Shown here in pieces: positions 6,471-13,901 of a DNA stretch of 32,967 bases. The stretch is from Nitrosomonadales bacterium. GTDB lineage: Bacteria; Pseudomonadota; Gammaproteobacteria; Burkholderiales; Gallionellaceae. The DNA is taken from the NCBI GenBank assembly GCA_947475825.1, contig CANJMS010000018.1, positions 1-32,967 of the forward strand, in the 5' to 3' direction. The first letter of the stretch is position 1, and each line of letters starts with the position of its first letter. The position numbers were made by a program, and so were the translations under genes. The notes under the pieces are model-generated. The model searched no databases, was not told the origin of the DNA, and saw only the letters and a program-made list of their open reading frames with translations.

Positions 6471-9446
6471 ATGCAACCTAAAAAGCGCATTAGCGCCAAG
6501 CCAGTGGTTAAGTCTACCCCCCGAGACATGGCCTCTAAGCCTGCCGCTCCGGGTTTTCCTATCGTCGGCATTGGTGCATCTGCTGGCGGATTAGAGGCGT
6601 TCGAGCAATTCTTTCATGCCTGTCCGGTGGACACCGGCATGGCCTTCGTGCTGGTGCCGCATCTTGACCCCAATCATCGCAGCCTGCTTACGGAAATCCT
6701 GCAACGTTGCACCGCCATGCCAGTGGCGCAGGCGCTCGATCAGGTTCCGGTGGAACCCAACCACATCTACATCATCCCGCCCAACCGCGAGATGGCCATG
6801 ACCAACGGCGTATTGCATCTCACCATGCCGGAATATGTAAGCGGGCAACGTTTGCCGATTGATGGCTTTTTTCGCTCGCTGGCTGAAAATCAGGCAGCGC
6901 ACGCCATCGGCATCATCCTTTCAGGCACCGCATCGGATGGCACCAAGGGGCTTGCCGCCATTCTCGCTGCGGGGGGCGTGTGCATGGTGCAGGAGCCGTC
7001 CACCGCCAAATATGACGGCATGCCGCAAAGCGCCATCAATGCCGGTTGCGCCATCCATATCCTGCCGGCAGAAGACATGCCAAAAATGCTGATGCAACTG
7101 GCACAGCAGTCAAACTTCCGTCTGCTTGTGCCACGCATTCTGTCCGTAGATGCACTGAGCGGCATGAACAAGATTTTGCTGCAAATCCGCAGCAGAACCG
7201 GTCACGACTTCTCGCACTACAAAAAGAGCACCATAGGTCGCCGTATCGAACGCAGGATGGCGGAGCACCGCATCGAGGACATGGCGGTGTATGCGAAGTT
7301 TCTTAAGCAAAGTCCCGCAGAAGTTAACGCGCTGTTCAAGGAACTGCTGATCAACGTCACCAGCTTCTTTCGCGACTCGGAAGCCTTCGACGTACTGAAG
7401 CAAGACATCCTGCCCGCCTTGCTCGCAAACAAGCCGGAAGACTACGTGTTTCGCATCTGGGTGGCAGGGTGCGCCAGCGGCGAAGAAGCCTATTCCATCG
7501 CCATCATACTGCGTGAGTTAATGGATGAGGCGCACAAGGATTTCAAGGTGCAGATCTACGCCACCGACCTCGATGATGATGCCATCAACAGCGCACGCAG
7601 CGGGCTTTACCCCGTAGGTATCGCAGAGGACGTCAGCCCCGAGCGCCTGCGCCGCTTCTTCAGCAAGAACGATAGCGGTTACAAGGTCAAGAAAGACCTG
7701 CGTGAGATGGTGGTGTTTGCCGTGCAGAGCGTCATCAAAGACCCGCCCTTCACCAAACTCGATCTGCTCAGTTGCCGCAACCTGATGATCTATCTGGAGG
7801 CGGAGCAACAACATCGCCTGATCTCCAATTTTCATTACGCACTCAAACCGGATGGGGTGCTGTTTCTTTCGGGTTCGGAAAGCATTACCGACCATCCCGG
7901 TTTGTTTCGCGTACTCAACCGCAAATGGAAGTTCTATCGCGCCATCCACATTTCGAACAAGTCAACCCTGCCCCAGTATAGGAGTTCACCCATGACAGCC
8001 GATATCCCCGCAGCACCCACCCATGTGGTGAGCCGTAAAGCCGCCCCGGTGGGTAGCGTCGCCGCCCTGAGCAATCGCATTCTGCTCCAGTCCTACGCCC
8101 CGGCCTCGGTGACGACTGATGCCAAAGGCAATATCCTCTATGTGCATGGCGACACCAGCCACTACTTGCGCCAACCTGCCGGGGAGGTGACCACCAATGT
8201 GATCGAGATGGCGTGGGATGGCCTGCAACTGGGTTTGCGCGCAGCTCTGCAGGAGGCAGTTCACGGTGCGCCTGTACAGAACCATGAAGTGGTGCTAAAA
8301 ACCGAGCGCGGCCTGCTCAAGGTGAGTTTCAGCATTCGTCTGTTGCCGTCAGCCCACCACGAGGAAGGGCCGTTGCTACTGGTGAGCTTTCAGGACGTGG
8401 CCGAGCCGGTCAAGCCCGCCAAGCGCAAAGGCAGCAAGGATATTCCCACGGCAGAAGAAGCGGGGCGCATCGAACACCTTGAACGCGAACTGTCCTACGC
8501 CAAGGAAAACCTGCAAGCCACCATCGAAGAGCAGCAGGCCACCAACGAAGAGCTTAAATCAGCCAACGAGGAGTTGCAGTCCACCAACGAGGAGTTGCAG
8601 TCGTCCAACGAAGAGCTGGAGACGTCAAGGGAGGAGTTGCAATCGCTGAATGAAGAAGCTATTACGGTCAACAGCGAAATGAGTAACAAAGTCGAGCAAT
8701 TGAACGACATCAAGAACGATCTGAAGAACCTGCTGGATAACGTGAATGCCGGCACCATTTTTCTGGACTACCAGCTGAACATTCGACGCTACACGCGCGA
8801 AGCGGTCAAAGCCTACAACCTGATTGCCACCGATGTGGGCCGTCCGCTGAGTGACATCACCTCGAATCTCGAAGGCGAGAGCCTGCATGCCGATCTGCAT
8901 ACCGTGCTGGAAAACCTGATCCCGATTGAGCGTGAAGTGCATACCCTCGATGGCATGTGGTATCTGGCGCGCATGCAGCCCTACCGGACATTGGATAACA
9001 TCATCGAAGGCGTGGTGCTGACCTTCACCGACATCAGCGTCAACCGCGAAGCAGCGCAGATCAAAGGCGCTGCGGTGCAACTGGCACGGGAACTGGCCGA
9101 AGGCATCGTCAATACCGTGGTCGAGCCACTCATCGTGCTGGATAGCGTCTTGCAGGTGGTCTCAGCCAGTCGTGCGTTCTTTCAGCATTTTAAGGTCACG
9201 CCAGAACAAACCGTGGGCCGTAAAATCTATGAGCTGGGCAATGGGCAATGGAACATCGCTGCCTTGCGCGATCTGCTTGAAGACATTTTGCCGCAGCGAC
9301 AGGTGATGGACGGCTTTGTGGTGGAGCACAACTTTCCCGATCTGGGGCCACGCCGCATGGTGCTCAATGCCCGCCGTATTGTCACAGCACTGGGCAATAC
9401 CGAGTTGATCCTGCTGGCGATGGTGGCGGTTGAGGCCAAGACGTAG
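6471..9446 (+). CDS. CheB/CheR fusion methylesterase-methyltransferase with coiled coil and PAS domains
   Basis: 991 aa. CheB motifs GIGASAGG, VPHLDP and GTASDG; CheR region (VTSFFRDSEAFDVLK, WVAGCASGEEAYSIAI, KLDLLSCRNLMIYL); long ATNEELKSANEELQSTNEELQ coiled coil; PAS domains. No N-terminal REC domain. Confidence 0.95.
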   Translation: MQPKKRISAKPVVKSTPRDMASKPAAPGFPIVGIGASAGGLEAFEQFFHACPVDTGMAFVLVPHLDPNHRSLLTEILQRCTAMPVAQALDQVPVEPNHIYIIPPNREMAMTNGVLHLTMPEYVSGQRLPIDGFFRSLAENQAAHAIGIILSGTASDGTKGLAAILAAGGVCMVQEPSTAKYDGMPQSAINAGCAIHILPAEDMPKMLMQLAQQSNFRLLVPRILSVDALSGMNKILLQIRSRTGHDFSHYKKSTIGRRIERRMAEHRIEDMAVYAKFLKQSPAEVNALFKELLINVTSFFRDSEAFDVLKQDILPALLANKPEDYVFRIWVAGCASGEEAYSIAIILRELMDEAHKDFKVQIYATDLDDDAINSARSGLYPVGIAEDVSPERLRRFFSKNDSGYKVKKDLREMVVFAVQSVIKDPPFTKLDLLSCRNLMIYLEAEQQHRLISNFHYALKPDGVLFLSGSESITDHPGLFRVLNRKWKFYRAIHISNKSTLPQYRSSPMTADIPAAPTHVVSRKAAPVGSVAALSNRILLQSYAPASVTTDAKGNILYVHGDTSHYLRQPAGEVTTNVIEMAWDGLQLGLRAALQEAVHGAPVQNHEVVLKTERGLLKVSFSIRLLPSAHHEEGPLLLVSFQDVAEPVKPAKRKGSKDIPTAEEAGRIEHLERELSYAKENLQATIEEQQATNEELKSANEELQSTNEELQSSNEELETSREELQSLNEEAITVNSEMSNKVEQLNDIKNDLKNLLDNVNAGTIFLDYQLNIRRYTREAVKAYNLIATDVGRPLSDITSNLEGESLHADLHTVLENLIPIEREVHTLDGMWYLARMQPYRTLDNIIEGVVLTFTDISVNREAAQIKGAAVQLARELAEGIVNTVVEPLIVLDSVLQVVSASRAFFQHFKVTPEQTVGRKIYELGNGQWNIAALRDLLEDILPQRQVMDGFVVEHNFPDLGPRRMVLNARRIVTALGNTELILLAMVAVEAKT

Positions 9447-11790: not shown

Positions 11791-11886
11791 TCAGCTGCTA
11801 TGTGGCGGTCACCAGCCATTGGATTATCGCAAGTGCCAATGCCCGCAAAGTGTCGTTAACGGCCATTCAAGATTTAAAAATTAAAA

Positions 11887-12028
11887 CCACAACAGCTATG
11901 CTCTTGTGAAGATTTTGATACAGACTGGCTATGCCAGACTGTAAATGTTGAATTGGCACAACAGCGATGTTCTTGTGAAATGCGTTGTCACAGACTTGCG
12001 ATGCAAGACTGTGGAGCAGGTCAATTGG
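11887..12028. repeat. Tandem duplication (~70-bp units) of a double-hairpin element
   Basis: Unit A hairpins at 11889-11907 (ACAACAGC-TAT-GCTCTTGT) and 11921-11941 (CAGACTGGC-TAT-GCCAGACTG). Unit B hairpins at 11958-11976 (ACAACAGC-GAT-GTTCTTGT) and 11991-12011 (CAGACTTGC-GAT-GCAAGACTG). Confidence 0.85.
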
Positions 12029-12033
12029 AACGA

Positions 12034-12542
12034 ATGACTGTAGCTAAAACTTACGAATGGCTGATGATTGATGCCAGCCACATCAAAGTACATCCTCACG
12101 CGGCAGGTGCAAAGGGAGGCAACCAAGATATGGCGCGTACAAAAGGGGGCTTAATACCAAGCTGCACTTGGCCGTGGATGCGCATGGTATGCCAATCCGA
12201 GTACTTGTCACGGCAGGTACCGTTGCAGATTGCACGCAGGCTGGCAAGCTCATTGAAGGTTTGACTGCGGAGAATTTGCTGGCAGACAAGGGTTACGACA
12301 GCGACGTGATTGTTGAACAAGCAAACCAACAAGGCATGAAGACGCAAATTCCCCCTAGAAAAAACAGGAAAGATCAACGCGACTATGACAAAGAACTCTA
12401 CAAATTACGGCACTTGGTGGAAAATGTCTTTTTGCATCTCAAGCGATGGCGCGGGATTGCCACACGCTATGCAAAATGCACCGCTTCATTCCTTGCGGCT
12501 GTACATATTCGCTGCATCGCACTATGGGTGACTGTCTTGTGA
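12034..12542 (+). pseudogene. 5'-truncated, frame-disrupted IS5 family (IS427-like) transposase remnant
   Basis: YEWLMIDASHIKVHPHAAGAKGGNQDMARTKGGL, then a -1 shift near 12153, then NTKLHLAVDAHGMPIRVLVTAGTVADCTQA...PPRKNRKDQRDYDKELYKLRHLVENVFLHLKRWRGIATRYAK. The N-terminal portion of the transposase is absent. Confidence 0.88.
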
Positions 12543-12841
12543 CGACACCATCTAGCAAGGATCGACCCATTTTTTTACCCGTATGATTCTACCCCAGCGC
12601 AACAAAACTTACACGATAGCAATTGTCTCCGATTCGTTAACGCTTACAAACCGCTCGAAATTGATTTGCCTTGCCCCTACAAGTATCTATAAAAATATTC
12701 GGCTCATTCATAAACACGAAATGCAGGTTAGAATGGCGTATTACCAGCTTAATATAACAATAGTTATAACAACGGACAGGGAAAACGGTTAAATACTTTA
12801 CCTCAACCGCTTTACCACCCTGTGCTATGTGCACAACATAC

Positions 12842-12860
12842 AGCCCATCTTTTGTGGGCT
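12842..12860. terminator. Candidate intrinsic terminator
   Basis: AGCCCA-TCTTTTG-TGGGCT hairpin with CCCTTTTTCTG starting about 8 nt downstream on the plus strand. Confidence 0.35.
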
Positions 12861-13061
12861 AATCGTACCCTTTTTCTGTTTTCTTAGTTCCTCCAAAAAT
12901 CTTGTCATGCATAAATAGCATTCTTCGGGCAAACTTATCATCTAGCAGAGCAACCCTGAGTACCTGCAAGTTTGATGATATACCGATCACCGGGCTCCAG
13001 ATTATAAGAATCCAAATCATCGGGGTACGGCAGGTCACATTCTGAACTTGGAAGGAGTTTC

Positions 13062-13901
13062 ATGCAGCCCACCCAACAATCTACGAACACCAGAAAAAAT
13101 TTGAATGCCATAAAAAATATAAATAACAGAAAAACTTTAATTTTCGCTCATCGAGGTGCAAATAATGAAGCCGCAGAAAATACGCGCGCTGCTTTTGAAC
13201 GCGCTCTGCAATACCCGATAGACGGTATCGAAACAGATATTCAGCTCAGCAAGGATGAAGTGACCGTGTTGTGGCATGATCGTTTTCTGGACAAGCTCGG
13301 CTATCCTACCAAGCATATTGACGACTTCGATTATGCACAATTGCATGAGATGAATGCGGCTGCACATTTTTTTACCACGCATCAAATAGATTCCGGCCAA
13401 CCTGAAAGTATCATGACTTTGGCAGAATTTTTAGCGACATATCGCAAGCGCACGCGCTTGTTGTTGGAGATTAAAAATCGTAATTGGGAAGCTGCTGCGC
13501 GCCATCATTTGAAAATTCAGCAAACGCTCGCCAGCGTTGGAGAAATTCGTAATGAGGAAATTTTCATGTCCTCATTTAATCTGGACAGCCTGATCTACGC
13601 ACATCAAATCCGACCTAAATTTCCGCTAATCTATAATCTAGAAGAGTACCAAACTATTGCAGATATGCGTGCGGTGTTGGCTGACCAACCATTTCTGCAC
13701 GGGTTATGTTTGCCGATCGCTAATCTGGGTGGTGACGTTGTACAACTGCTGCGCGAGCAAGGAAAAAGCATCACGGCATATACCTGCAATAGCGATGAGG
13801 AAATTAACCAAGCCCTGAGATGGGAGGTGGATATTTTAATTAGTGACCTGCCTGAAAAAAGTCTGAAGATGAGAGATGCCAAAAAGCATAATGAAGCGTG
13901 A
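13062..13901 (+). CDS. Glycerophosphodiester phosphodiesterase family protein
   Basis: IFAHRGANNEAAENTRAAFERAL...GIETDIQLSKDEVTVLWHD; SD GGAAGGAG upstream of ATG. Confidence 0.92.
   Translation: MQPTQQSTNTRKNLNAIKNINNRKTLIFAHRGANNEAAENTRAAFERALQYPIDGIETDIQLSKDEVTVLWHDRFLDKLGYPTKHIDDFDYAQLHEMNAAAHFFTTHQIDSGQPESIMTLAEFLATYRKRTRLLLEIKNRNWEAAARHHLKIQQTLASVGEIRNEEIFMSSFNLDSLIYAHQIRPKFPLIYNLEEYQTIADMRAVLADQPFLHGLCLPIANLGGDVVQLLREQGKSITAYTCNSDEEINQALRWEVDILISDLPEKSLKMRDAKKHNEA

Follow-up and report, generated by a model that had tools for sequence, protein, structure and literature searches.

A conserved double-hairpin element at the joints of tRNA-integrated islands in iron- and ammonia-oxidising bacteria

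The integron attachment site attC is a cassette recombination site folded from one strand (PMC3053210). Tycheposons are tRNA-integrated islands reported in Methylophilaceae (PMC10872708), and defence hotspots are described for P4-like satellites (PMC9122126). A distal tRNA 3' fragment, a tyrosine integrase at the tRNA and defence cargo are common to these islands and to those described here, and in the main texts of the latter two papers a text search turns up nothing on hairpins at the joints. The ways in which defence islands acquire and trade cargo are for the most part still an open question. Other short folded elements include the REP/BIME/REPIN family (RAYT, TnpA-REP) and the mitochondrial double-hairpin elements. 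The latter resemble the element studied here in name, in having two adjacent short hairpins and in being discussed as mobile, but they belong to organelle genomes and have no known link to integrases or tRNA islands.

The window (the whole analysed stretch of 32,967 nucleotides, contig CANJMS010000018.1 of a Nitrosomonadales bacterium of the family Gallionellaceae) carries at 11884-12014 on the + strand a tandem pair of 62-bp double-hairpin units, here called U. A search limited to open-licence papers found no report of U. The islands themselves are of known kind, and U is the new part. The two units are made up as follows.

11884..11944, + strand: U unit A, CTGGC/GCCAG type (cmsearch 74.3 bits, E 8e-18)
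11888..11908, + strand: unit A hairpin 1, CACAA-C-AGC TAT GCT-C-TTGTG, with a C.C mismatch (sequence; conserved stem)
11919..11943, + strand: unit A hairpin 2, ACAG-A-CTGGC TAT GCCAG-A-CTGT, with an A.A mismatch (sequence; pattern search; conserved stem)
11953..12014, + strand: U unit B, CTTGC/GCAAG type (cmsearch 74.4 bits, E 8e-18)
11957..11977, + strand: unit B hairpin 1, CACAA-C-AGC GAT GTT-C-TTGTG (sequence)
11989..12013, + strand: unit B hairpin 2, ACAG-A-CTTGC GAT GCAAG-A-CTGT (sequence; pattern search)

Each unit has two triloop hairpins with their centres about 32 bp apart. With three mismatches allowed, a pattern search finds either hairpin pattern twice in the window, against a shuffled mean of 0.01. 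The preliminary description had reported two tandem double-hairpin units with triloops, a C-C mismatch in hairpin 1 and an A-A mismatch in hairpin 2; all are present in the window, and cmsearch recovers both units. The step from CTGGC/GCCAG to CTTGC/GCAAG, which had been called compensatory, is a true paired change: among 44 relatives the pair is G-C in 25, T-A in 18 and G-T in one, and a larger set gives 66 G-C, 39 T-A and one intermediate. Two pairs of hairpin 1 vary similarly in the larger set (A-T 95 and G-C 10; A-T 79 and T-A 23).

Across 44 distinct U sequences, 97.2% of stem cells pair as compared to 90.2% after shuffling, and cells with a double change number 51 vs. a shuffled mean of 14.8. 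Sliding the partners by one to three columns brings pairing down to 15-42%. The earlier view that structure is conserved over sequence is borne out, since paired positions covary and further copies exist; a lack of other copies, with stems broken in homologues, is not what is seen. The mismatches had been described as fixed. This holds for hairpin 2, where the column is A.A in 104 of 108 distinct copies. Hairpin 1 is less fixed (C.C 54, A.C 41, A.A 6 and C.A 3, that is 104 of 108 distinct copies), yet its two bases almost never pair. The matching loops within a unit turned out to be a matter of chance: they agree in both window units, but are identical in 10 of 108 distinct copies, with 10.4 expected. 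Judged from the alignments, a folded single strand, whether DNA or RNA, appears to be favoured over a protein dyad on duplex DNA, because the paired positions change in step with few intermediates. In a test for which strand folds, core pairs show 20 G.T and 10 A.C wobbles, and U stably folds on either strand.

A covariance model built from the 44 U units detects U in 43 of 151 genomes of the window's family, with about 1-6 matches each, some of which are reverse-strand shadows. The own genome has three units in all, the third being at C48:14693-14754; weak blast matches on its contig C24 were rejected as AT-rich chance. In the order, 10 of 400 genomes carry U, 3 of them from the window's family and 4 from a family (f16) that is probably Nitrosomonadaceae, its locus G473 coinciding with that of Nitrosomonas sp. 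Nm84 (L069). The exact hairpin-2 pattern leads to 55 stretches from species genomes, almost all of Gallionella, Nitrosomonas, Nitrosospira, Nitrotoga and relatives. The bearers of U are mostly Gallionellaceae and Nitrosomonadaceae, iron- and ammonia-oxidising bacteria, and U is almost absent elsewhere in the order. A few stretches are filed under WOR-1, Bacteroidia, Planctomycetota and Gammaproteobacteria. Four with such non-family labels (L022, L033, L056 and L020) have Gallionella- or Nitrosomonas-like flanks around U, yet carry the labels WOR-1, Planctomycetota, Bacteroidia and Gammaproteobacteria; they are probably mis-binned contigs. The pattern search gave no exact hairpin-2 pattern in viral contigs, and a similarity search gave no DNA similar to U in plasmids and phages. 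Four weak matches to the model in another genome (G059:C1 57830, 2189039, 2831849 and 2856986) have an equal score of 23 bits, and one of them is within 500 bp of a Y1_Tnp gene; they are perhaps insertion-sequence ends rather than U.

This distribution bears on the preliminary suggestion of REP/BIME-like DNA, and more broadly on the idea that U is an ordinary REP or MITE repeat that inserts into intergenic DNA and spreads with islands by chance. U is indeed short, palindromic and intergenic with mismatched stems, has two hairpins per unit and units in tandem as REP/BIME/REPIN elements do, and Y1 transposases are common in the family. However, there are only about one to six matches per genome, and U occupies a joint position in islands. 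No Y1_Tnp match at E up to 1e-8 occurs in 16 of the 43 U-bearing genomes, namely the window's and 15 others, and Y1 shows no association with U (27 of 43 U-bearing vs. 75 of 108 other genomes, p=0.45). An alignment of 44 units has no conserved columns for a tag tetranucleotide (GTAG, CGTC) beside a hairpin. Copies inserted independently, moreover, would not have a flank in common on just one side. We regard this explanation as extremely improbable, and the REP/RAYT assignment was rejected.

In many loci, a stretch of about 100 bp that contains short direct repeats lies downstream of U and gives way to the 3' half of a tRNA gene, as is characteristic of attachment sites that tyrosine integrases leave behind. 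Of 79 elements, 23 have a tRNA T-arm within 320 bp downstream on their own strand, as compared to 1.9% of random windows; on the opposite strand, none of the 79 does. Both features of a tRNA-integrated island end are found: the distal tRNA 3' fragment (23 of 79 elements) and a tyrosine integrase at the tRNA with matching arm sites, seen at tRNA-His on the own-genome contig C10, where the integrase is broken, and with intact integrases at tRNA-Arg in L117 and L112. The tRNAs at U loci include Val, Arg, Lys, His and others, with several types of arm region, and in the tRNA-His and tRNA-Val islands the attachment arms are common to both island ends. A second group has U facing a P4-type integrase (Pfam Arm-DNA-bind_3 and Phage_integrase) from its 3' side, with the integrase starting near an intact tRNA-Ser; U is behind only about half of the closest P4-type integrases. 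A third group has a toxin-antitoxin pair (RelE with an HTH/Xre antitoxin) with U after it and often also before it. Intact 353-aa integrases lie at tRNA-Arg in L117 and L112. The former island reads tRNA-Arg, integrase, a gene matching PADLOC PDC-M68B (DUF2326), RelE/HTH pair, U-U, arms and tRNA-Arg fragment, whereas the latter reads tRNA-Arg, L117-type integrase, type III methylase, ResIII gene, U and L117-type arms. The order at the distal attachment site is cargo, U, integrase arm repeats and tRNA 3' fragment. U is a joint element of tRNA-targeted integrative islands, positioned between modules.

This position could also mean that U serves the attachment site as an accessory part to which an integrase, an excisionase or a bending protein binds. 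In attR at tRNA-Val, U directly abuts the arm repeats (GACTGT-GGTGACTTTT.GGTGACTT), as such a part would. However, U goes with several unrelated arm types and integrases, and the copies behind P4-type integrases or beside toxin-antitoxin cassettes are more than 1 kb from the core, which makes this a very unlikely explanation.

In the window, the following parts lie to the right of the two units.

12015..12053, + strand: start of the attachment-site arm region, containing CTGTAGCTAAAAC, broken off at about 12053 (L032 match; C10 arm)
12054..12792, + strand: segment in place of the tRNA-His fragment; it carries a truncated DDE transposase (no L032 match here)
12793..13901, + strand: chromosomal DNA that flanks the island on the right (85-89% match to the part of L032 directly behind its tRNA-His fragment)
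13062-13901: GDPD gene in the right flank (Pfam GDPD)

Window positions 11957-12053 match L032 at 93%, and L032 continues to a tRNA-His 3' fragment. The truncated transposase ORF (12168-12542) covers positions 41-199 of 200 of Pfam DDE_Tnp_1. Contig C10 has an intact tRNA-His, then a broken integrase related to the L117 integrase (71% and 51% identity in two frames), then the arm sequence CTGTAGC[C/T]AAAACGTAGCTA as in the window. Because arm and flank match L032 and C10 carries the tRNA-His with the broken integrase, the window copy most likely marks where a decayed tRNA-His island ends on the right (attR), its tRNA fragment having been lost to a transposon. We infer that the left end of this island is on C10 and that the island spans from C10 into this contig. 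An empty tRNA-His site was not found in the genus, where the flank is closely shared by the genome of L032 only. Elsewhere in the window, at 8500-8618 inside ORF 6471-9446, a 21-bp unit is repeated 5.7 times in tandem.

Clustering of the flanks of 95 U elements reveals extensive shuffling of modules. One left module, the end of a toxin-antitoxin pair, is joined via U to six right modules, among them the end of a P4-type integrase as well as att arms; right modules, in turn, are combined with as many as nine left modules. Similarity ends within at most 5 bp of the U edge in 52 of 57 and 177 of 179 pairs, a statistic that is partly built in, since the flank clusters were themselves drawn up close to U. 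U begins in L121 at the point where a type I methyltransferase gene breaks off. The two U loci of the own genome share 80 bp at 96% identity and then run into different att modules. Among toxin-antitoxin copies at least 94% identical to the query, U comes right after the stop codon in 9 of 11, whereas the nine full-length copies read that are at most 90% identical have unrelated sequence after the stop. The joints in L066, L110 and L171 fall inside hairpin 1 at differing points, a pattern that resembles illegitimate recombination more than a site-specific process.

Such shuffling needs no special enzyme if both partners carry U. It may be supposed that U is a mere shared homology of 62-131 bp for RecA-driven module exchange, its hairpins being kept otherwise or by recent descent; tandem copies, found in 23 of 95 elements, would lengthen the homology. 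However, plain homology does not need compensatory changes and conserved mismatches, and U copies differ by 10-30%, a divergence that makes a poor substrate for RecA. We consider this explanation unlikely.

U may alternatively act as RNA where cargo transcripts end at the 3' side, as a terminator, stabiliser or insulator against read-through into the att site or integrase. In 24 of 87 elements, as compared to 6% of random places, a same-strand ORF of at least 80 aa ends no more than 40 bp before U, the 3' end of the upstream gene faces U in 45 cases and the 5' end in 24, and the stable folding of both strands would suit such a role. Much of the 3'-end excess, however, comes from two toxin-antitoxin families that spread with U, many copies come after a tRNA or adjoin a divergent gene on its 5' side, and no T tract is present on either side. 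An intrinsic terminator was rejected: the T fraction is 0.34 after U vs. 0.29 further on, and at least five T in the first 8 nt occur in 14 of 95 elements. Rfam 15 gives no match at gathering score over the window and none up to E=10 over 11800-12100. U may be a small structured RNA, as proposed earlier, but its flanks are unconserved, with neither a promoter of its own nor a T tract. We find a role at transcript ends improbable. Of the options listed in the preliminary description, a recombination site fits best, the copies being situated between reshuffled modules of integrative islands.

In working principle, integron attC is the closest known system to U. In both, structure is conserved over sequence and unpaired stem bases are kept; both are found at gene 3' ends, between exchangeable cassettes, with toxin-antitoxin cassettes among them and tyrosine recombinases nearby. 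The differences are also clear. The R''/R' 7-mers (RYYYAAC...GTTRRRY) occur in 0 of 95 U elements, and U has two separate hairpins whereas attC is one long imperfect palindrome. The four IntI-bearing stretches tested have no U, and U was rejected as an attC site on sequence. No IntI match at E up to 1e-60 occurs in 9 of 43 U-bearing genomes. IntI is enriched among the U-bearing genomes (34 of 43 vs. 54 of 108, p=0.001), perhaps because such genomes carry more mobile DNA. The integron integrase model TIGR02249 scores above cut-off in 85 of 151 family genomes, including the own genome (G000) at C53:14816-15754, a contig that has no attC pairs with exact complementary 7-mers.

Tentatively, and with rather less than even confidence, we propose that U acts in strand exchange as a structure-dependent site of junction or recombination, placed where cargo modules meet attachment modules. 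To the observed position of U, the shuffling across it and its conserved fold with mismatches, this proposal adds a presumed recognition of the folded strand and a presumed recombinase. Single-stranded U would fold into two mismatched hairpins, a protein would recognise them by shape, and strand exchange at or beside the hairpins would join, lose or swap cargo modules between islands, so that U would work in the manner of an attC site without being one. The proposal is based on the same-strand tRNA T-arms downstream, the 3' ends of P4-type integrases, the shuffling, the covarying stems and the kept mismatches, as well as on the gene cut at U in L121, the two own-genome copies leading into different att modules and the arms common to both ends of tRNA-His and tRNA-Val islands. 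It is weakened by the presence of U behind only about half of the closest P4-type integrases, by the varied cuts in hairpin 1, by the partly built-in edge statistic, by wobble pairs that single out neither strand as the folded one and by the lack of a circular cassette and of an empty site in the genus. At least three integrase types accompany U and none is tied to it, which also counts against a recombination site. A bolder version, which we deem doubtful, makes U the site recognised by a cassette-exchange system that is undescribed and distinct from integrons, with a recombinase acting on the two folded hairpins and, as part of the same doubtful claim, defence and toxin-antitoxin modules being loaded and swapped in tRNA islands.

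The interchangeable parts of the tRNA islands are defence genes, toxin-antitoxin pairs, integrases and attachment sites, and U, found at the joints between them, may be the seam where such islands swap their cargo. Such a seam marker would make module exchange readable directly from genomes, and U is small enough to test. Should a recombinase indeed recognise the folded U, a cassette system besides integrons would be at hand. Even failing that, U can be used to flag islands that are cryptic or decayed, like the one in the window.

Several smaller islands and modules were also observed. Islands of about 2 kb at tRNA-Val (L167/L132, G144:C14; L168/L052, G124:C80) contain little beyond a tyrosine integrase and a RelE-type toxin-antitoxin pair. 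In L066, L125 and L138, U lies in a stretch of a few kb beside a full tRNA where no intact integrase is seen; a deletion in L066 seems to have taken away the integrase end and to run into hairpin 1 of U. Finally, L118, L142, L143 and L115, which share right module R7, have a conserved palindrome, TTATAAGTTGAGCCACA...TGTGGCTCAACTTATAA, after U and before a possible small gene.
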